Below, one piece after another: positions 13,881-25,695 of a stretch of 26,665 nt of DNA (the stretch's first letter is position 1; each line of letters starts with the position of its first letter). A program made the translations under genes and the position numbers. The stretch spans positions 1 to 26,665 of the IMG/VR virus record IMGVR_UViG_3300042197_002134; one strand, given 5' to 3'. Origin of the DNA: a virus. A model generated the notes under the pieces. That model was not told where the DNA came from, did not search any database, and saw nothing but the letters and a program-made list of their open reading frames with translations.

Positions 13881-14711
13881 TTATTCAAATTTAGTTTTTA
13901 CTCCTCCTCCTGTATGATAAATATCTAATCCACTTTCATCATCAAAATGTTTTTTCATTGCTTGAACATTTTTTAAATCGTCGTCTGAAAATCCAATATA
14001 AGGTGTGAAGTAATTTGAAATCTTGTTTTTGAAATAAGCCTTTTCTTGTAGTCTTTGAGACAAGTTTTTAACATATTCCATAAATTGTCTCATTGCACTA
14101 ACTTTTAATTCCTCGGGATTGGCAGCAGATCCTTCACCAAAACTAACAGGGTGGTATTTACACATCTCTAAATATGTTTCGATAAGTTCATCGTCAGTTA
14201 AATCGTCTTCATCGGAAATATCTCTATACTTTCTTAGATTTTTGACAATTTCTTTTTTGTCCAAACCATACTTGTTCTTGTTGATTAAATTGTGAATAGT
14301 ATCTTTTAATACATTAGGGGTATGTCCTCTAGCGGTGATTATTGCAAAAATTGAACCGTTATTAACCGCCTCAACAAAATCGGACCATGCCGGACCAATT
14401 TCAGCGGACATTGCATCGGTCATAAATTTTTTATCTCCCGAAACTCGGAAATCTCTGAAAGCCTCATCGTCAAAATCAACTATGGTGTTACCTTCATATT
14501 TAACAGGTTTCTTTCCAATTTTAGACCTATACTCTGCAAAATCTTCCGTAGACATACCAACAACGTTACCTTTATCATTTTTTAAATATATTTTTGTTGG
14601 CATATACATTAAATTGTCATCCCAATCAAACGCATAATATTTCATGGTCGGTTTTAATTGGTCTTGTATAATTTCAGATATAATATTTTTTACTTTATTA
14701 GAATAATTCAT
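13881..14711 (-). CDS. HAD-superfamily phosphatase-like protein with N-terminal leader
   Basis: A 276-residue protein with haloacid dehalogenase motifs. Motif I is FDWDDN (nucleophile D29, acid/base D31), motif II is IITARGH (T126) and motif IV is GFSDDDLKNV (acidic residues 243-245). A motif III lysine is less certain. Residues 40-115 form a cap-like insert and 150-230 a helical insert. HAD enzymes usually remove phosphate from small metabolites, nucleotides or DNA ends; the substrate here cannot be told. The catalytic fold seems to begin at M23 (MKYYAFDWDDN), leaving a 22-residue helical leader containing IISE, a possible prohead-protease site. It lies between the tube and sheath genes, where T4 has none. 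The start at 14711 is supported by an adjacent TATTTATT motif; M23 is an alternative start. Confidence 0.8.
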   Translation of the reverse strand: MNYSNKVKNIISEIIQDQLKPTMKYYAFDWDDNLMYMPTKIYLKNDKGNVVGMSTEDFAEYRSKIGKKPVKYEGNTIVDFDDEAFRDFRVSGDKKFMTDAMSAEIGPAWSDFVEAVNNGSIFAIITARGHTPNVLKDTIHNLINKNKYGLDKKEIVKNLRKYRDISDEDDLTDDELIETYLEMCKYHPVSFGEGSAANPEELKVSAMRQFMEYVKNLSQRLQEKAYFKNKISNYFTPYIGFSDDDLKNVQAMKKHFDDESGLDIYHTGGGVKTKFE

Positions 14712-14783: not shown

Positions 14784-17700
14784 TTAAATATTCTCAAAAG
14801 AAGCTCCAGTCGGAGTGATATAGAATGTTATATCAATAAACTCGAGTGCTCTTGTAGGTTTAATATAAATCTTACCTGTTAATTGGTTTCTGTCAATATC
14901 TTCAGGGTCAGATGAAACCGTTACTCTAAAGTCGTAGAGACCTCGGTCTCTTCTAATCGCATCTAAGATTGGATTGACAGCGTTTAAGAAGTCTTGTCTT
15001 ACTTGAGCGTCGTTTTGTTCAAACAATAATCTTACAGATACTGCTGAAATCAACTTACGTGCTTGAAGTAACAATCTTCTAACGTTGATTCTATCAAGTG
15101 CCGACTCTCTTACTTGTAATGTTTTATTACCCCAAATTACGGTTCCTACGTCAGAGAAGGTCGCAATTGGGTTAATTCTACCAACATAAAGAATGTCTCT
15201 ATCTTCTTGTGTCAACTTCTTACGAGCTTTTATACAATTAACAATACCACGAGTGTAACCCGCCGCCGCGAACCATGGAAATGCAATGTTATCTGTAAGT
15301 GCTAAGTTTCTTGTTACCTCAGCTGTCGGTGGGATATAAATTTGAGTGTTATTTACACTATCTCTTGTTAATACCCACGGATAGTAAGTAGCCGTATAGT
15401 TAGAGTCGATTCCTGTGTTATCCAAATTATCAACCGCCTCAGTAGGATAGATGAACAAATCCGTTCCTGAGTTTGCGGGTGAAAACAAATCAGCATCAGG
15501 TGTTGTACAAACATATAATGAGTCCGCTCTATTGAATTCTATCATCTGAACTGCGTCCTCAACAAGATTACTATTATTTACATAATCAATACCCGGTGTT
15601 ACAAAAACGTTAATGTTTGTAGCTTCAGGATTTGCGAACGTTTGTTGTCCTAATAGGTATGCGTAGTAGTCAGTGTTTGCAAAGTTTTGAGTTCCGTCAC
15701 CTAAAGAAATTTCTTTAAATGCTCCCCAACCTTTAGCGTTAGGGTATCTTGTTGATGGACATGCCCCATTTAAATAACCTGCTCTACCAATTTGGAATCT
15801 GTCTTCGTTTGTTCTCCATTCTCTATATATATCCCAACCATCAAAACCACCCTGAACTAAGAAAGTGAATTTACGAGCGAATAATCTGTAGTATGCGTTT
15901 GTTGGAAGTTCTGGTTCTGTAATGAAAGAAGAATTACCACAAATAAATCTTGGGTCACCGCTTGTTGAAAACTCAGGTCCGATTGTCAAACCACTTGCAT
16001 TTATATCCATGTGGAAACCTGTTGATCTGTAGTTGAACGGAAGACCATCAATATCACAGGAATTAACTGGATTTCTTTTACCTACGTATTCAAAGAATGC
16101 TGGATCCCATCCATATGAATTTGAAATTCCTAAGTAAGTTCTTCTAACATTATCCCCTGGACTAACAAGTGCGTTGTCGTTTCCTGAGGACAATCCAAAT
16201 GGTGGGTTGTAGATTACTTCACCAGGGAAGTCATATTTACCTTTAATAATTGGGAACGGTGATTGTGCTCCTGCGTAATTTCTAAAGTTAAATCCGTTGA
16301 AACCACATGGAAGAGCGTCTATTGGAGCATCTTCCGACATTTCAACCATAACATATTTAGAGTTCAACATGTATTCACCATCCAAAGTTCCTATTTTATT
16401 TGCGATAAAGTTATTTTGACCTGGATCCATGGTGCAATTTGTGAATTTTTCTAAAACTACAGGATTTGCATCAGTATCAAAATAATTACGAATTAATACG
16501 TCGAATGTTAGATTACTATACGTTTGATTGATGATCGATATTTTTATCAAAGTATTCGCACCATCACCATCAGATATGGTGTAGAACCTAAATAAGTCAT
16601 ATACCTTATTACCTCTTAATTCAGATACAACAAATGGTGAATATGGTGTTTGCCATTTATCTAAATACCAACCGATTGAATTGGGATCTCCACTTTGAGC
16701 AGAATCTAAAGAAATTAAATTGGGATTCAAACCTTTGATATAACCTTTTCTCCAAGAGTAATTTAACCATGATTGGAAATTTTCTTCGGCAAAAACTGGA
16801 ACCTCAAGTCTTGGTTTTTGGAAGTTAGTTATACCGAATACTTTTGACCAATACTCAGGATCGTTTTGAGTAAATGAAGTTTCAAAGAAATAAGATGTTC
16901 CAAACTTATCTACAACATTTACACCAAATGTGGAATAAGGATTTTTCAATACAGCTGAATATTGACCTGTCATATTAAGAGTAACATCGGTGATACCAGT
17001 TACTGAATATGCTGGGTTTGTTGCATTTACATAAGTCGCAACACCTCTTGATCTAAGGGTTCCTACAACTACATTATCATAGTTGGTATAAGATGTACCA
17101 GTATAGTAATACAATTTGATATACAAATTACCCGAATAACAATTAACCGGTAATGTTGTTGTTGTAGTTGTGCTTGTAGTCGGAACAGGTGTAACACAAG
17201 GATTAGTTGTTGTAGTAGTAGTCGATGAACTAGTTGATGTTGTAGTTGTAATTGGGGTTAATGTTAAACCTGATACAAAACTAAAGAATGAATAACCACT
17301 ATAGTTCGTGTTTCCTGTTGTATTAAATAATGCGTAATACCAAGCGTCGTTTAAAGGAGATTCTAAATTAGTTTCATCCAAAGATACTGAAGGAACGCCT
17401 AAAACGTTAGTTGAAGCCGTCCAACCTGCGTTAGTAATAGTATCATAATCCATCGTTGGAATAGAACCCCAATATGAAATAAACTCATCTTCTGCAACAA
17501 ATGGGTTAGAACTTGTAATTACATCAAAGATCAAACTTCTAATATCATCGTCTAATGTTGATGTGCCCCCGTTGAATTGTTCGTATTGTGAATACAATAT
17601 GTCTTGGATCTCATCAGGAAATGAAGATAAGTAAGAAATACTTGAGATGTCATTATTACATCCTGTAAAAGGTATAGCGTATACCTCATCATAATAATCC

Positions 17701-18119
17701 ACACAAATTGTCTCACAAGTCGCCGTGCTTGTTACAGAACTCAAACACCATAATCCTACCGTAGATGGATTTACGTTGGCTACGGTTGTTACGGACCAAG
17801 ATGGACCCGCATCATAACCTGACAAACCTAAAATTCTTGTTACAAATAATTGGTTTGATTGTTGTAAATATGCCTTAGCAATATAAGCCGCCTCATATTT
17901 AGGTATTGTTGTGTTAATAAATTTTTCAGGAGATGTTCCCCCGAATACTGTTTGAAATTCATCAAAATTTCTAATAAAGATCGGCTCAAATGCCGGACCT
18001 ATCAACGTTTCACCAACGATGCCCAGTGTTGTTACACCGACACTTTGAGCGACAAAACTTAAGTCAACTTCAGAGGTATAAACACCTGGAGAAACAAAAA
18101 CTTTACTATTAGTTGCCAT
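14784..18119 (-). CDS. gp18: Contractile tail sheath protein, gp18-like, with large insertions
   Basis: A 1111-residue sheath protein, far longer than T4 gp18 (659). The N-terminus has the usual sheath opening (FVSPGVYTSEVDLSF, then GIVGETLIGPAFEPIFIRN). The C-terminal 180 residues hold the conserved sheath core: WFAAAGYTRGIVN, RINPIATFSDVGTVIWGNKT, RRLLLQARKLISAVSVRLLF and a final beta strand IDITFYITPTG. Between about residues 105 and 430 there is extra sequence, split by a Thr/Ser-rich linker at 288-323. This insertion probably forms surface domains facing outward on the tail. In infection the sheath contracts and drives the tube through the envelope. The gene has a TATTTATA motif upstream and a strong terminator downstream. 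Confidence 0.95.
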   Translation of the reverse strand: MATNSKVFVSPGVYTSEVDLSFVAQSVGVTTLGIVGETLIGPAFEPIFIRNFDEFQTVFGGTSPEKFINTTIPKYEAAYIAKAYLQQSNQLFVTRILGLSGYDAGPSWSVTTVANVNPSTVGLWCLSSVTSTATCETICVDYYDEVYAIPFTGCNNDISSISYLSSFPDEIQDILYSQYEQFNGGTSTLDDDIRSLIFDVITSSNPFVAEDEFISYWGSIPTMDYDTITNAGWTASTNVLGVPSVSLDETNLESPLNDAWYYALFNTTGNTNYSGYSFFSFVSGLTLTPITTTTSTSSSTTTTTTNPCVTPVPTTSTTTTTTLPVNCYSGNLYIKLYYYTGTSYTNYDNVVVGTLRSRGVATYVNATNPAYSVTGITDVTLNMTGQYSAVLKNPYSTFGVNVVDKFGTSYFFETSFTQNDPEYWSKVFGITNFQKPRLEVPVFAEENFQSWLNYSWRKGYIKGLNPNLISLDSAQSGDPNSIGWYLDKWQTPYSPFVVSELRGNKVYDLFRFYTISDGDGANTLIKISIINQTYSNLTFDVLIRNYFDTDANPVVLEKFTNCTMDPGQNNFIANKIGTLDGEYMLNSKYVMVEMSEDAPIDALPCGFNGFNFRNYAGAQSPFPIIKGKYDFPGEVIYNPPFGLSSGNDNALVSPGDNVRRTYLGISNSYGWDPAFFEYVGKRNPVNSCDIDGLPFNYRSTGFHMDINASGLTIGPEFSTSGDPRFICGNSSFITEPELPTNAYYRLFARKFTFLVQGGFDGWDIYREWRTNEDRFQIGRAGYLNGACPSTRYPNAKGWGAFKEISLGDGTQNFANTDYYAYLLGQQTFANPEATNINVFVTPGIDYVNNSNLVEDAVQMIEFNRADSLYVCTTPDADLFSPANSGTDLFIYPTEAVDNLDNTGIDSNYTATYYPWVLTRDSVNNTQIYIPPTAEVTRNLALTDNIAFPWFAAAGYTRGIVNCIKARKKLTQEDRDILYVGRINPIATFSDVGTVIWGNKTLQVRESALDRINVRRLLLQARKLISAVSVRLLFEQNDAQVRQDFLNAVNPILDAIRRDRGLYDFRVTVSSDPEDIDRNQLTGKIYIKPTRALEFIDITFYITPTGASFENI
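17151..17258 (-). repeat. Thr/Ser-rich low-complexity linker inside the sheath gene
   Basis: Codes for sheath residues 288-323, two runs of mostly threonine separated by a short NPCVTPVP segment. It divides inserted domains in the sheath protein. Such linkers are common in secreted and surface proteins, and here likely form an exposed flexible tether. Simple triplet repeats also make it prone to length change. Confidence 0.85.
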
Positions 18120-20049: not shown

Positions 20050-20463
20050 TTAACCTAAACTCAAAGCATATTTAACGGCAGCCTCAGCTCCCGATTTACC
20101 CGCATCAAAAGATTTTAAATTTTGACCACCTTTGTTGTAAACTTTTATCTTCCAAACCCCCGTGTTACCAGAACCACAATCTAAAAAAACATTAGTTCCT
20201 TTGTCATGACTTCCTTTATACATGTAAGTGCAACACTTATAGTGACACGGTCTATTTAAACCTGGAACTTCGGGTTCAGTTTTAGACACAAAACCCGCCG
20301 CTTTTAGTTTTGGTGCCAAATCTAATTTCCACCAATCTCTATCAGCACCGCCTTCATCTTTGATTTTTGGGTCACCACCACCCTCACTTTTTGGTTGTTC
20401 ACTAATAACTCGTCTAACAATACGAGCCAAATCTTGTTCTGTAAGCCTTATTATTCTTTTCAT
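20050..20463 (-). CDS. Small Cys-containing protein with a possible capsid-targeting leader
   Basis: A 137-residue protein of unknown function. Residues 1-22 form a basic amphipathic helix containing RLTE (E9) and ending VISE (E22), both matching the (L/I)-x-E sites cut by T4-type prohead proteases. A disordered Gly/Asp/Lys-rich stretch (23-42) follows. The rest (43-137) looks like a compact domain with four cysteines (C73, C77, C78, C96) and a WKIKVYNKGG strand. The layout of short helical leader, cleavage motif and small soluble domain is that of T4 internal head proteins, which are packaged with DNA and injected. There is no secretion signal. It has its own TATTTATA motif and a strong terminator, so it is a single-gene unit. 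The role is inferred. Confidence 0.75.
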   Translation of the reverse strand: MKRIIRLTEQDLARIVRRVISEQPKSEGGGDPKIKDEGGADRDWWKLDLAPKLKAAGFVSKTEPEVPGLNRPCHYKCCTYMYKGSHDKGTNVFLDCGSGNTGVWKIKVYNKGGQNLKSFDAGKSGAEAAVKYALSLG

Positions 20464-20576: not shown

Positions 20577-22340
20577 TTGGAAAATACGCAAACCCTATTA
20601 GAACATAAAGCACTCGATCTACTCGAGTCATATTCGGGCGCAAATAACTACATTCTTTATTTAAAACAAAAAAAAGAAAATTCTAAAAAGTTTTATCCTA
20701 CAAGAACACAATCTGATTATATTGTTAATTATTACGATTCGGTTCCTAAAGTCGCAAGAAAGTGGGTTGACCTTGATAGTTATTTTGCTAAAAAGTTTGC
20801 TGAAGAAAAATATCTATTGGAAACTCCATCACAAATTTATATTGAAAAATTGTTGGTTGAGAAAGAAAAGTCTTATCACATTTGGGGAAAGTTTTTTGAA
20901 AAAGATTCTTTATCAGAGTTTTGGGTTCCTAAATCGGCACTTATTAAAACCCATAATGTTCAAAGTGTTGAAATAGATTATTCAAAGTATTCACATAGAC
21001 CTCCATTAAATCATCAAAAAATTGCAATTGAAAAATTGGCAGGATCAAAAAGATTTATTTTAGCCGATGATATGGGTCTTGGAAAAACAACATCAACAAT
21101 TATCGCGGCATTAGAAACAGGATCCAAAAAAATATTAATTGTTTGTCCGGCTTCATTAAAAATAAATTGGCAACGGGAAATTGAAAACTATTCAGATCGT
21201 CCTGTTTTTATTTGTGAAGGAAAAAAGTTTTCAACCGAACATGATTTTGTGATTATCAATTATGATATATTAAAAAACTTTCACGATCCAAAAAGTAAGG
21301 AATTAACTTTATTAGAACAATGCAATTTTGATTTAGTTATTTTGGATGAAGCTCATATGATTTCAAATGCTCAAGCACAAAGAACAAAAATCATAAATAG
21401 TTTTGTTAAAAAGATTAATAGAGTATGGTTGTTAACGGGAACACCAATGACTTCACGACCTATGAATTATTACAATCTTTTGAGTATCATCGAAAGCCCT
21501 GTCGCGCAGAATTGGATGGCTTACGCCATTCGATACTGCCAAGGGTATCAGTTTAAAGCGGGAAATAGAAAAGTATGGAATGTTTCAGGGGCTTCTAACC
21601 TTGAGGAACTAAGAGATCGAACTTCTAAACAAATTCTTAGACGATTAAAAGAAGAGGTTTTAGATTTACCTGATAAAATCATTACACCCGTTTATTTAAG
21701 ATTACAATCAAAAGAATATGAAAATCTGATGGGTGAATACTATGATTGGTATGATAAAAACCCTGACGAGTCATCATCACTTACCGTTCAGTTCTCAAAG
21801 TTAATGAAAGTTAGAAAAGTAATTGCAAATGAAAAAACAAGACAAACAATTGAATTTGCTGAAAACATTTTAGAACAAGGAAAAAAAGTTATTATATTCA
21901 CAAACTTTACAGACTCACTTCAAACAATCTATCAACACTTTAGAAAACAAGCGGTTTATTTGGACGGTAGTTGTTCAAACTCAGTTCGTCAACAAGCTGT
22001 TGACTCATTTCAAAATGATGAAAGAATAAAAGTTTTTGTTGGTAATTTAAAAGCGGCTGGCGTTGGTTTAACTTTAACATCCGCTGAGGTTGTTATTATG
22101 AATGATTTATCATTCGTTCCTGCAGAACACGCACAAGCAGAAGATCGGGCATATCGTTATGGACAAAAATCAAACGTTTTGGTTTATTATCCTTTATATG
22201 AAAACACAATTGAAGGTGTTATTTACGATATTTTAAATAAAAAAAAAGAAATAATTAGAACCGTGATGGGTGATCAAATACCTGAAAATGTTGGTGACGT
22301 TGCCGAAGAAATTCTTAACATGATTCTTAAGTATAAATAA
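20577..22340 (+). CDS. SNF2-family DNA helicase/translocase
   Basis: A 587-residue superfamily 2 ATPase of the SNF2 class. Visible motifs are Walker A DDMGLGKT (164-171), IVCPASLKINW (188-198), DEAH (257-260), LLTGTP (285-290), the second RecA domain with VIIFTNF (438-443), NLKAAGVGLTLTSA (490-503) and motif VI QAEDRAYRYGQ (520-530). All core motifs are intact, so it should be an active dsDNA translocase, most like the SMARCAL1/HepA-type fork remodellers. The first 130 residues are family-specific and unrecognised. The gene starts with TTG, backed by an AAAAGG site; the next in-frame Met is at residue 165, inside Walker A. It probably acts in replication fork handling or recombination. It lies among virion genes, beside two possible internal head proteins. 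Confidence 0.93.
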   Translation: MENTQTLLEHKALDLLESYSGANNYILYLKQKKENSKKFYPTRTQSDYIVNYYDSVPKVARKWVDLDSYFAKKFAEEKYLLETPSQIYIEKLLVEKEKSYHIWGKFFEKDSLSEFWVPKSALIKTHNVQSVEIDYSKYSHRPPLNHQKIAIEKLAGSKRFILADDMGLGKTTSTIIAALETGSKKILIVCPASLKINWQREIENYSDRPVFICEGKKFSTEHDFVIINYDILKNFHDPKSKELTLLEQCNFDLVILDEAHMISNAQAQRTKIINSFVKKINRVWLLTGTPMTSRPMNYYNLLSIIESPVAQNWMAYAIRYCQGYQFKAGNRKVWNVSGASNLEELRDRTSKQILRRLKEEVLDLPDKIITPVYLRLQSKEYENLMGEYYDWYDKNPDESSSLTVQFSKLMKVRKVIANEKTRQTIEFAENILEQGKKVIIFTNFTDSLQTIYQHFRKQAVYLDGSCSNSVRQQAVDSFQNDERIKVFVGNLKAAGVGLTLTSAEVVIMNDLSFVPAEHAQAEDRAYRYGQKSNVLVYYPLYENTIEGVIYDILNKKKEIIRTVMGDQIPENVGDVAEEILNMILKYK

Positions 22341-22387: not shown

Positions 22388-24538
22388 ATGAAAGTTTACA
22401 TTAAATACGAATCTCCCGAATTAAAAAAAAACAAAAATTTTGTAGAAAAATTTATCGATCTGCTACAAAAAGAATATCCTTTGAAAACAAATTTGAAAAT
22501 AATGTTTTTGAATGATAGAAATGGAGAAATGTCTACAGGAAGTAGAAGGGGGGACAATTTGATTAAAGTGCTGGCCAAAGGTAGATTGAACAGAGATATC
22601 ATGAGAACTTTGGCACATGAATGGGTTCATGAATACCAAATGACAATTTTAAAAAGAAAACAAGGCCCAAATATTGGGGGAGTCAATGAAGATGAGGCGA
22701 ACGCATTTGCAGGTCAAATTGTTAAAAAATTTGAAGAATCGTATCCCGAACTTGAATCAATAATGTATGAATCAAAATCAATTACAGGAAAATTAAATCT
22801 TTTGACGGAACAAATATTATTGACTGAAAAAAATTTAATTAAGGATAACCTGATTTTAGAAATGAAAAAAATTGGTATTGAAAAATTACCATATTCATAT
22901 TCATCTCTGAAAAAATTTATTGATACAAAAACTATGGATATTCACTACAACAAACATTACAAAGGTTATGTTAATAAGTTGAATAAGTCTTTAAAAAACA
23001 AAGACGGTGACATGGAATTAGAAGAAATTATAAAATCTATAAGTAGATTCGACACTAAGATCAGAAACAATGCTGGCGGTGCGTTCAATCATGCGTTGTT
23101 TTGGAAAATGTTATCACCAAAAAAACAAATACCCAAAGGAGAGATATACAAACAAATAAAAAAAGATTTCGGAAATATTAAAAAAATGAAAGACGAATTT
23201 AATCAAGCCGCCAAAGATCGGTTTGGTTCTGGATGGGCTTGGTTATATCTTTCTAAAGATGGTAAATTAAAAATAATGTCCACCCCAAATCAAGATAATC
23301 CTTTAATGAATGTTGTAAAAAAAGGTGGTTTTCCACTTTTAGGTTTAGATGTTTGGGAACACGCTTATTATTTGAAATACCAAAATAAGAGAGACGAATA
23401 TATAAATAATTTTTGGAATGTTGTGAATTGGGAGTTTGTTGAGGAGTTATATTTGTCAAAAACTAAAAAAGATAAAAAAACTATTAAAGAAGATACTTCC
23501 GATAAAGAAATTATCAATGAGATTAGTAAAACTTTTGCATTCCCATATACCGCAAAAGGATTAAGAGAACTTATGCATTCCCAATATGTTGGTTGTTACA
23601 ATAAACAATATAAGGATGGTTGTTTAGGTAGAATAGAAACAAAAAAATGCACAACTGAATTAGGTATTTTGGGTGGTGATTATTCTGAAAAAAAATTCGG
23701 AGGAACCAGTCAGTGGTCCATTATCAATAGATTCGATACCAACAGTCGTGTAAAAAAAGAAATTTACAACATTTGGTTAGAAGAAACTGAAGGATCAACC
23801 GACTTTAAAACATGGATTAAAGACCACGCATCTGATTTATTTTCAAACGATGGAATGTATTTGGATCGATTGGTAGAACCAAATATAGGAACAATTGAGA
23901 TTGGCAAAGAGAATGAAAGTTACGCAAAACAAATAATTAGACAAATATATAATCTCAGTCCTGATCAAGAAGGTATATCGTATGAATTATACGAACATTG
24001 TTCGGGGGATATTAACGATAGAAAAAAAGGACAAGATATTGTTTTAATTATAAAAGGGGGGGACACAATATATTTTCAAGTTAAACCATTTTTAAATCAA
24101 AATAACGACATTGAATTTTTTGATGGAGGAGATAGAGGATACTACTTTAAGGTCTCATCATGGCATAGACAAACAAAATATAAAGGAGAAAATGTCGATG
24201 TAATTTTATATGTAGACAGAACAGAAGACAAATATATAATGTTTAGAAATGATCATAATAAAATGTTAACAGTTAGTAATCCAAGAACACAACCACCTTT
24301 TCATATCTTCTATTATGAAATGCCACTACAGAGTAACTTTAAAATTCCTTTACAAAAAGAAATTCCTAAAACACCTGTTAAAAAGAGTATTGCCAAAGAT
24401 GTAAAAAAAGAAATTGAATTTTATAAAGAAAGAATTAATTATTTTACTAACAAAATAAAAGAACTTGGAGGTGAAAATCAAGATATAAATGAAATGATTA
24501 ATTTTTATAAAGAAGAGTTGTCTAAGACAATTATATAG
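22388..24538 (+). CDS. Multidomain protein: HExxH metallopeptidase-like, Mn-type superoxide dismutase, nuclease-like domain
   Basis: A 716-residue fusion. Residues 1-130 hold a zinc peptidase-like domain with HEWVH at 77-81 and a downstream EDEANAFA (E103 a likely third ligand). Residues 135-160 form a joint with LTE, LTE and ILE in close succession. Residues 163-357 are a full iron/manganese superoxide dismutase domain: LPYSY opening, ligands H186, H235, D321 and H325, and gateway Y194. Gly231 and Gln302 in NQDNPLM point to the manganese type. A second joint (360-380) contains IKE and INE. Residues 380-650 include D550 and Q564-V-K566 with E510 upstream, the layout of a PD-(D/E)xK nuclease. 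A coiled coil ends the protein. Superoxide dismutase converts superoxide to peroxide and oxygen. The (L/I)-x-E joints suggest cleavage into separate capsid-packaged parts, which is inference. Confidence 0.9.
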   Translation: MKVYIKYESPELKKNKNFVEKFIDLLQKEYPLKTNLKIMFLNDRNGEMSTGSRRGDNLIKVLAKGRLNRDIMRTLAHEWVHEYQMTILKRKQGPNIGGVNEDEANAFAGQIVKKFEESYPELESIMYESKSITGKLNLLTEQILLTEKNLIKDNLILEMKKIGIEKLPYSYSSLKKFIDTKTMDIHYNKHYKGYVNKLNKSLKNKDGDMELEEIIKSISRFDTKIRNNAGGAFNHALFWKMLSPKKQIPKGEIYKQIKKDFGNIKKMKDEFNQAAKDRFGSGWAWLYLSKDGKLKIMSTPNQDNPLMNVVKKGGFPLLGLDVWEHAYYLKYQNKRDEYINNFWNVVNWEFVEELYLSKTKKDKKTIKEDTSDKEIINEISKTFAFPYTAKGLRELMHSQYVGCYNKQYKDGCLGRIETKKCTTELGILGGDYSEKKFGGTSQWSIINRFDTNSRVKKEIYNIWLEETEGSTDFKTWIKDHASDLFSNDGMYLDRLVEPNIGTIEIGKENESYAKQIIRQIYNLSPDQEGISYELYEHCSGDINDRKKGQDIVLIIKGGDTIYFQVKPFLNQNNDIEFFDGGDRGYYFKVSSWHRQTKYKGENVDVILYVDRTEDKYIMFRNDHNKMLTVSNPRTQPPFHIFYYEMPLQSNFKIPLQKEIPKTPVKKSIAKDVKKEIEFYKERINYFTNKIKELGGENQDINEMINFYKEELSKTII

Positions 24539-24567: not shown

Positions 24568-25695
24568 ATGGCAATTATTAACGAACCAGAAAGAAGTGAG
24601 TTTTATCAAAAAGTTAGGCACCTTTTAGGAGCACCACTGAGATCCGTAGAATTGGAGGACGAAATGATGGACACATTGTTAGAATATTCAATAGACGATT
24701 ATTCGCAATACGTTCAAGATTGGTTAATCGAATCTCAATGGACATCTTTATATAATCTAAATCTTGACACTCAATCGTTATCAAGAGCGTTTATCACAAA
24801 AAGTTTAGACTTTGAGACAAGATACACATATGCTTATTCTAAAATCGTAGGTTTACAGGCTGGAGGAGATTGGGAAATCAAAAAAGATTACATACAGTTA
24901 GTCCCAAATCAACAAATTTATGAAATACCTGCGGGTCGTGAAATCAATGAAGTTTTATGGTTTACACCATCAACACTAAATAACTTATTGTTTGGTTTAG
25001 GTGGGTTTGCTGGTGTTGGTATGGGTACAGGTATAGGAGGAGGGGGAGGACTTGCTCAAATTGGAAATATGGCAGGAAGTTACTATTTAACTCCAGCCTT
25101 TGACACTTTACTCAGAATGCAAGAAGTCAACATTCAAAGACGTATTTATGCTGGTGATTTAACTTATTACATTACAGCGTTACCAGGTGGTAAGAAGGCG
25201 TTACACCTTTTGAACACACCTGGAGGTAAATTTGATTTTGGTAACGCTGAATTGGCAAAAGGTCAAGTTTGGTATTGGTATTATGACACTACACAAGGAG
25301 ATAGAGATAAATGTTTGGCCGACAATCCTGATATTGTTTTGTTACCATCCGATGTTCCTTTTAATAAAATATCTTGGTACAAATTGAATAATCCCGCACA
25401 AGTTTGGGTTAGGAGATGGTTTACCGCCTATTGTAAAGAAACATTATCAAAAGTTAGAGGTAAATTTAGTGGTAGTTTAAAAACCCCTGATGGTGATTTA
25501 ACCATGGAATGGCAAAGTTTAGCGACAGAAGGTAAAGATGAAAAAACAAAATTGATCGAAGAACTTATAGGTGCTGATGGTCGTCTAACAAGACTTAGAC
25601 CGGAAAAAATAATGGAAAGGGAGGCTCTATTAGCTGAAAATCTTAACAAACAACTTAAGTTTAGAGCAATGCCAAGACAAATATATGTAATATAA
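24568..25695 (+). CDS. gp13: Neck protein, gp13-like
   Basis: A 375-residue protein resembling the T4 gp13 neck protein family (T4 309 residues). The N-terminus is helical and acidic (FYQKVRHLLGAPLRSVELED, then MMDTLLEYSIDDYSQYVQDW). A beta section follows (DWEIKKDYIQLVPNQQIYEI, then PAGREINEVLWFTP). The C-terminus has the conserved VWVRRWFTAYCKETLSKVRGK helix, DGDLTMEWQSL and a long charged helix. In T4 gp13 and gp14 close the filled head so the tail can join. Residues about 145-180 are a Gly-rich insertion that probably forms a flexible loop. It is followed four bases later by a 115-aa gene, so the two form one unit. It lies on the opposite strand to the gp15-like gene, unlike T4. Confidence 0.8.
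   Translation: MAIINEPERSEFYQKVRHLLGAPLRSVELEDEMMDTLLEYSIDDYSQYVQDWLIESQWTSLYNLNLDTQSLSRAFITKSLDFETRYTYAYSKIVGLQAGGDWEIKKDYIQLVPNQQIYEIPAGREINEVLWFTPSTLNNLLFGLGGFAGVGMGTGIGGGGGLAQIGNMAGSYYLTPAFDTLLRMQEVNIQRRIYAGDLTYYITALPGGKKALHLLNTPGGKFDFGNAELAKGQVWYWYYDTTQGDRDKCLADNPDIVLLPSDVPFNKISWYKLNNPAQVWVRRWFTAYCKETLSKVRGKFSGSLKTPDGDLTMEWQSLATEGKDEKTKLIEELIGADGRLTRLRPEKIMEREALLAENLNKQLKFRAMPRQIYVI

Follow-up and report, generated by a model that had tools for sequence, protein, structure and literature searches.

The 716-amino-acid protein encoded at positions 22,388 to 24,538 (plus strand) of the DNA analysed here, a viral stretch of 26,665 nucleotides hereafter called the window, is probably a polyprotein carried as cargo in the capsid, with peptides for targeting and cleavage inside its chain, a reading which draws on analogy with bacteriophage T4 and to which we assign a probability of about 0.6. 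The three-module build put forward in an earlier sequence-only reading was mostly borne out, the modules being a zincin-like domain with an HExxH motif, a full Mn-type superoxide dismutase (SOD) and a PD-(D/E)XK-type nuclease-like domain. Genes for SOD have already been reported from freshwater phages, as oxidative-stress genes proposed to protect the infected host (PMC6802176). No description of the fusion arrangement, or of a leader-joined capsid polyprotein, was found in the open-licence literature searched.

Gene, modules and neighbourhood

The open reading frame runs from an ATG through to a stop codon, and its limits, like the positions of D550, Q564 and K566, had been given correctly by the sequence-only reading. 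The protein had no Pfam match outside the SOD region and no match among the PHROGs. Median dN/dS values of 0.19 for the N-terminal domain (N-domain), 0.07 for SOD, 0.13 for the C-terminal module (C-module A) and 0.41 for the first joint, the least constrained segment, indicate purifying selection on all assayed segments.

The gene had been placed inside a phage structural gene block, which is roughly correct. The next gene (24,568-25,695, plus strand) encodes a T4 gp13-like neck protein (head-tail adaptor Ad2; phrog_211, E = 1.4e-9), a homologue of which comes after the gene for the N-domain and SOD (N-SOD) at most loci examined, and sheath, tube and baseplate genes, all on the minus strand, are found nearby in the window; the gene directly upstream (20,577-22,340, plus strand) encodes a helicase (PF00176, E = 3e-31; phrog_62, E = 3.5e-111), listed with a TTG start although its true start is uncertain. 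The tail sheath gene (14,784-18,119, minus strand) codes for 1111 amino acids, of which approximately the last 290 match known sheaths and approximately 800 are extra.

The N-domain (residues 1-130; 22,388-22,777, plus strand) was classed as zincin-like from its motif, an AlphaFold2 model (pLDDT 88.8, pTM 0.84) and fold matches. The zincin signature of an HExxH motif at residues 77-81 (H77-E78-x-x-H81) and a third-ligand Glu (E101, within NEDEANxFA) is present, H77, E78, H81 and E101 being conserved, and E78, E101 and Asn105 are invariant in 58 of 58 relatives. The peptidase function suggested earlier is plausible: the HExxH...E motif proved to be invariant, whereas the fold matches, to the zincins M61 aminopeptidase, IrrE/PprI and YbeY, were weak (all E ≥ 0.065). 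A sequence profile of the domain gave nothing credible against the PDB. The N-domain is also encoded alone, without a leader, in related phages (L060, 8001-8417; L247, 6193-6576) and, more distantly, in the freshwater cyanophages S-SRM01 and B23 (L181, L182).

The SOD domain (residues 161-357; 22,868-23,458, plus strand) was identified by Pfam (PF00081 and PF02777), with matches to Sod_Fe_N (residues 165-243, E = 1.4e-20) and Sod_Fe_C (residues 249-353, E = 7e-42), and its closest PDB entry was 6gsc (E = 7e-66). The four metal ligands H186, H235, D321 and H325 and the Mn-type second-sphere residues G231 and Q302 are invariant in all 58 non-redundant relatives. Judged by its domains and residues, this segment is a Fe/Mn superoxide dismutase of the Mn type, complete with all metal ligands, as had been claimed. 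Both Pfam domains, the four ligands and the Mn-type Gly and Gln are shared with the Fe/Mn SOD family (6gsc, 5a9g); the bacterial relatives are single-domain proteins, many with a twin-arginine export leader, whereas the phage SOD sits between two other domains.

In a genome scan the nearest bacterial SODs were nearly all Mn-SODs of Bacteroidota (L336-L381), many of them with a twin-arginine export signal, in place of which the phage enzyme carries a leader of the capsid type. The SOD tree gave weak support for one phage SOD group (54/63), because a long Fluviicola branch joins the phage group. A bacterial origin of the fusion was rejected, since none of 46 bacterial SOD contigs encodes an N-domain or a C-module A. 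An internal start of the SOD at Met159 was considered and also set aside, the related locus L203 having Ala at that position.

In C-module A (residues 385-716; 23,540-24,535, plus strand) the residues E510, D550, Q564 and K566 are invariant among 21 relatives of the C-terminal part. The AlphaFold2 model of the module (pLDDT 88.1, pTM 0.74) has E510 in a long helix, D550 at the opening of a strand and Q564-x-K566 in the next strand, which is the helix-strand-strand motif order expected of PD-(D/E)XK enzymes. In Foldseek the model had as its first PDB match the PD-(D/E)XK homing endonuclease I-Ssp6803I, with a probability of 1.00, an E-value of 5e-3 and a low whole-model TM-score of approximately 0.2 on the query, and further restriction-endonuclease-like folds were found lower in the list. 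A sequence profile of the module against the PDB gave nothing credible. The module resembles PD-(D/E)XK nucleases, among which I-Ssp6803I has the nearest fold, in the order of E510, D550 and Q564-x-K566, and differs from them in its large extra segments and in having no Pfam or sequence-level match. With this top match agreeing with the earlier claim of a nuclease-like fold, the model makes a good case for a predicted nuclease.

Joints and leaders

Joint 1 (residues 131-160; 22,778-22,867, plus strand), between the N-domain and SOD, has three (L/I)xE sites, LNLLTE141-QILLTE147-KNLIKDNLILE158-M, and joint 2 (residues 358-384; 23,459-23,539, plus strand), between SOD and C-module A, contains KKTIKE368-DTSDKEIINE378-ISKT. 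Across the family, (L/I)xE is 10.4 times as dense in the joints (261 motifs over 2,685 residues) as in the remaining sequence (299 over 31,990), and at least one was present in 58 of 58 first joints and in 40 of 40 second joints, the latter being those of relatives with a C-module. The joints resemble amphipathic helices. Because homology alone could keep (L/I)xE motifs in place, independent evidence was sought.

At locus L203, a SOD without N-domain has joint 1 as its N-terminus ('MKYIENKIQLIENSILME..'; the N-terminus 'MKYIENKIQLIENSILMESAKKSLIEEAKKIGIEKLPYS' was read from a Met that lies in frame within the ORF as listed), and the next gene encodes a lone C-module A with the start 'MKYIFTESQLDILKNKILINED', the counterpart of joint 2. 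The standalone module at this locus has the leader form 'MKYIFTESQ..ILINED'. At L055, joint 2 of the fusion, 'KKNIITENQSDKIN', is found again as 'MKIIITENQSDKIN', with which three standalone genes in tandem begin, and at L235 the SOD has joint 1 as its start and precedes two copies of C-module A, between which lies a third joint, 'KKLTESTRKNRLLLEGS'. Since the joint sequences are the N-termini of standalone modules at these three loci, the joints are, on this sequence evidence, leader peptides caught inside a fusion. The sequence-only reading had described them as resembling sites of a prohead protease, with which both the density of (L/I)xE and the identity of the joints with N-terminal leaders of separate modules agree.

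Dozens of unrelated proteins in related phages open with a two-site leader of the general form M-K…(L/I)xE…(L/I)xE. In the relatives G004 (272 kb) and G002 (149 kb) the leader takes forms like MKRIIRLTESDLARIVRRVINEE or MKIIITESQ (loci L159-L180). It was found 26 times in G004, compared with 2.3 in shuffles (maximum 8 in 500 shuffles), and 9 times in G002, compared with 0.6; on mostly Bacteroidota contigs (397 genes) it was found once, compared with 0.6 in shuffles, i.e. without enrichment. The shuffles and the bacterial-gene control led to the rejection of a composition effect as the source of the motif. Furthermore, a matrix trained on the leaders of unrelated proteins had its best-matching segment inside a joint in 47 of 58 family members, the joints making up 8 % of positions.

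The window itself encodes a protein of 137 amino acids (20,050-20,463, minus strand) which, by its sequence and by the leader enrichment in relatives, has the same kind of N-terminal leader (MKRIIRLTEQDLARIVRRVISEQ) and which had no Pfam or PHROG match. The two-site leader could serve as a cargo label throughout the lineage. A leader-like start was also seen at 13,881-14,711 (minus strand), followed by 'YYAFDWDDNL', which by eye reads as a HAD-type phosphatase motif.

Comparison with T4 packaging and alternative readings

The window is a 26.7 kb fragment, and a T4-type S77 prohead protease (PF03420) was found in 5 of 13 partial related records. In the protease of the relatives the motifs ELNHP and SSRGxGSL of T4 gp21 are retained, and their major capsid protein is T4 gp23-like and of the processed type, with SYLINE↓A where T4 gp23 has FLTE↓A. 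In the T4 record, ipII and ipIII start with MKTYQEFIAE↓A and gp24 with MAKINELLRE↓S. Few sequence rules are known for gp21-type cutting, and motif matches are therefore no proof of cutting; that the S77 protease was found only in relatives counts against the polyprotein.

In T4, ten leader residues suffice for incorporation of a protein into the head, positions 8 and 10 govern cutting, targeting and processing residues are separable, and the leader has packaged and released foreign proteins, including EcoRI and staphylococcal nuclease (PMC9026906). The T4 internal proteins are diverse cargo behind a shared leader (PMC3012670). A short leader with an (L/I)xE site is common to the phage family and to T4 IPI, IPII, IPIII and Alt, which have a capsid-targeting sequence cut by gp21 (MEROPS S77), but the phage leader is longer and has two sites, and its cargo is SOD and nuclease. 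The T4 leader acts at the N-terminus of a protein, whereas the leaders of the phage chain are internal, occur two or three times per chain and separate enzymes. In the window, the protein opens with the N-domain instead of an N-terminal leader ending in (L/I)xE; N-terminal (L/I)xE leaders were found only in the standalone relatives of L203, L235 and L055. By analogy, the build would work like the packaging of T4 internal proteins, minus the N-terminal position of the leader. This internal position, with the N-domain ahead, counts against a polyprotein, as does the restraint that a packaged nuclease would need inside the head.

We infer the packaging, cutting, injection, enzyme activity and targets of the 716-residue protein as follows. 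The two joints would be internal copies of the leader that is set before many proteins of the phage lineage. The leader would bind the assembling prohead core, by analogy with the T4 capsid-targeting sequence, and a T4-type prohead protease would cut after (L/I)xE, so that the Mn-SOD and the PD-(D/E)XK nuclease would each be released within the head and the zincin domain would form the N-terminal fragment. The freed enzymes would be ejected with the DNA into the next cell, where the SOD could remove superoxide in the first phase of infection, a role also proposed for the SOD in virions of the chlorovirus PBCV-1 (PMC7019647), and the exchangeable nuclease could cut host, prophage or rival DNA. 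Alternatively, the SOD might protect the virion DNA. The PBCV-1 enzyme (A245R) is a Cu/Zn-SOD, expressed from a late gene, packaged and linked to lower superoxide after infection (PMC7019647); it is likewise a viral SOD, but an unrelated, standalone enzyme of a eukaryotic virus.

An ordinary multi-domain enzyme acting in the infected cell, its SOD relieving stress and its joints serving as flexible Glu-rich linkers, never packaged or cut, would fit with the host protection proposed for SOD and oxidative-stress genes of freshwater phages (PMC6802176), with the occurrence of N-domain-like proteins among cyanophage replication genes and with the helicase gene upstream. We consider it unlikely, given that the joint sequences recur as N-terminal leaders of modules encoded on their own, that (L/I)xE is 10.4 times denser in the joints than elsewhere and that the leader is lineage-wide and not enriched in bacterial genes.

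Somewhat less probable still is a protein packaged and cut as proposed, whose nuclease is no weapon against host or rival DNA and instead has a role in the head, in genome biology or on the incoming DNA of the phage itself, for example in repair or restriction evasion. At L249 the gene for a standalone relative of C-module A sits among the head genes, with the S77 protease gene on one side and the scaffold and capsid genes on the other, as such a role would suggest, but the exchange of unrelated C-modules behind a constant N-SOD fits arms-race cargo better. The placement at L249 also speaks for the polyprotein. The least probable reading is that the leaders dock proteins to the prohead or to some other part of the virion without being cut, so that the full-length product is a minor structural protein whose enzyme domains are dead or accessory. 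It is consistent with the amphipathic look of the joints, the adjoining neck gene and the separability of targeting and processing residues in the T4 leader (PMC9026906), but dead domains are contrary to the invariant catalytic residues and the purifying selection on the domains, and the (L/I)xE residues persist even though joint 1 is the least constrained segment.

The polyprotein reading can be extended to a lineage-wide virion cargo system, in which the two-site leader would bring dozens of proteins per genome into the virion and set them free there. Placed inside a chain, it would let the prohead protease split one polyprotein into several enzymes for injection, the peptidase-dismutase front being constant and the nuclease ends exchangeable; the odds for and against this extension appear about even. 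For comparison, T4 packages a few small internal proteins by a 10-residue leader. If the extension is true, abundant lake phages scale T4-style packaging to dozens of labelled proteins, and their polyproteins bundle a radical scavenger with changeable nucleases. The alike starts of many short unknown genes in these genomes would be explained, injected phage proteins could be predicted in metagenomes by a sequence rule, and what ejected enzymes do in uncultured phages would become testable. A natural internal leader would also be on offer for protein delivery by phage heads.

Distribution, exchangeable ends and host

Scans of IMG/VR gave 103 loci with the N-domain as the query, 261 with the full-length protein and 413 when a profile of the N-domain was used. 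The search of viral databases for the same domain order, which had been proposed as a check, was successful: the build of the window (N-SOD-A) was found in 35 distinct ORFs. Among the other distinct ORFs, 24 had the build N-SOD-B, three ended in module C, a small module, one ended in module D and 27 consisted of N-SOD alone; a fifth module, E, follows a SOD without N-domain in L203. The N-SOD front is constant and the C-terminal end is exchanged, with at least five kinds of C-module. A chance fusion or assembly error was rejected, since the 35 N-SOD-A and 24 N-SOD-B ORFs come from many metagenomes. The 27 proteins without a C-module keep joint 1 and have a C-terminal end without joint 2, and a C-module is therefore not required, a point that also counts against the polyprotein.

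The carriers of the N-SOD family are uncultured lake phages, and relatives of the C-module or of the neck gene were found in none of 50,697 named phages. A bS21 gene was present in 9 of 14 related records (8 over the family cut-off). In G002 it is located at 101,919-102,071 (plus strand), between the protease and portal genes, both on the minus strand. The same strand arrangement has been described for freshwater Bacteroidetes phages, where bS21 and the genes for protease, portal and capsid lie on opposite strands (PMC9723584); the likeness is one of gene arrangement, and superoxide is not mentioned in that work. The host is likely to belong to the Bacteroidota, because bS21 occurs as in freshwater Bacteroidetes phages and the nearest bacterial SODs are nearly all from this phylum.

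C-modules B, D and E have D..(E/S/Q)xK-like patterns when inspected by eye. Homology between C-modules B and A was undetectable with hhalign (probability 0.2), and for this reason the C-modules are not all claimed to be nucleases. At L055 (9607-10,959), C-module C is encoded by three standalone genes in tandem, every copy having a leader of its own, just behind a fusion ending in the same module, which looks like a local gene amplification.
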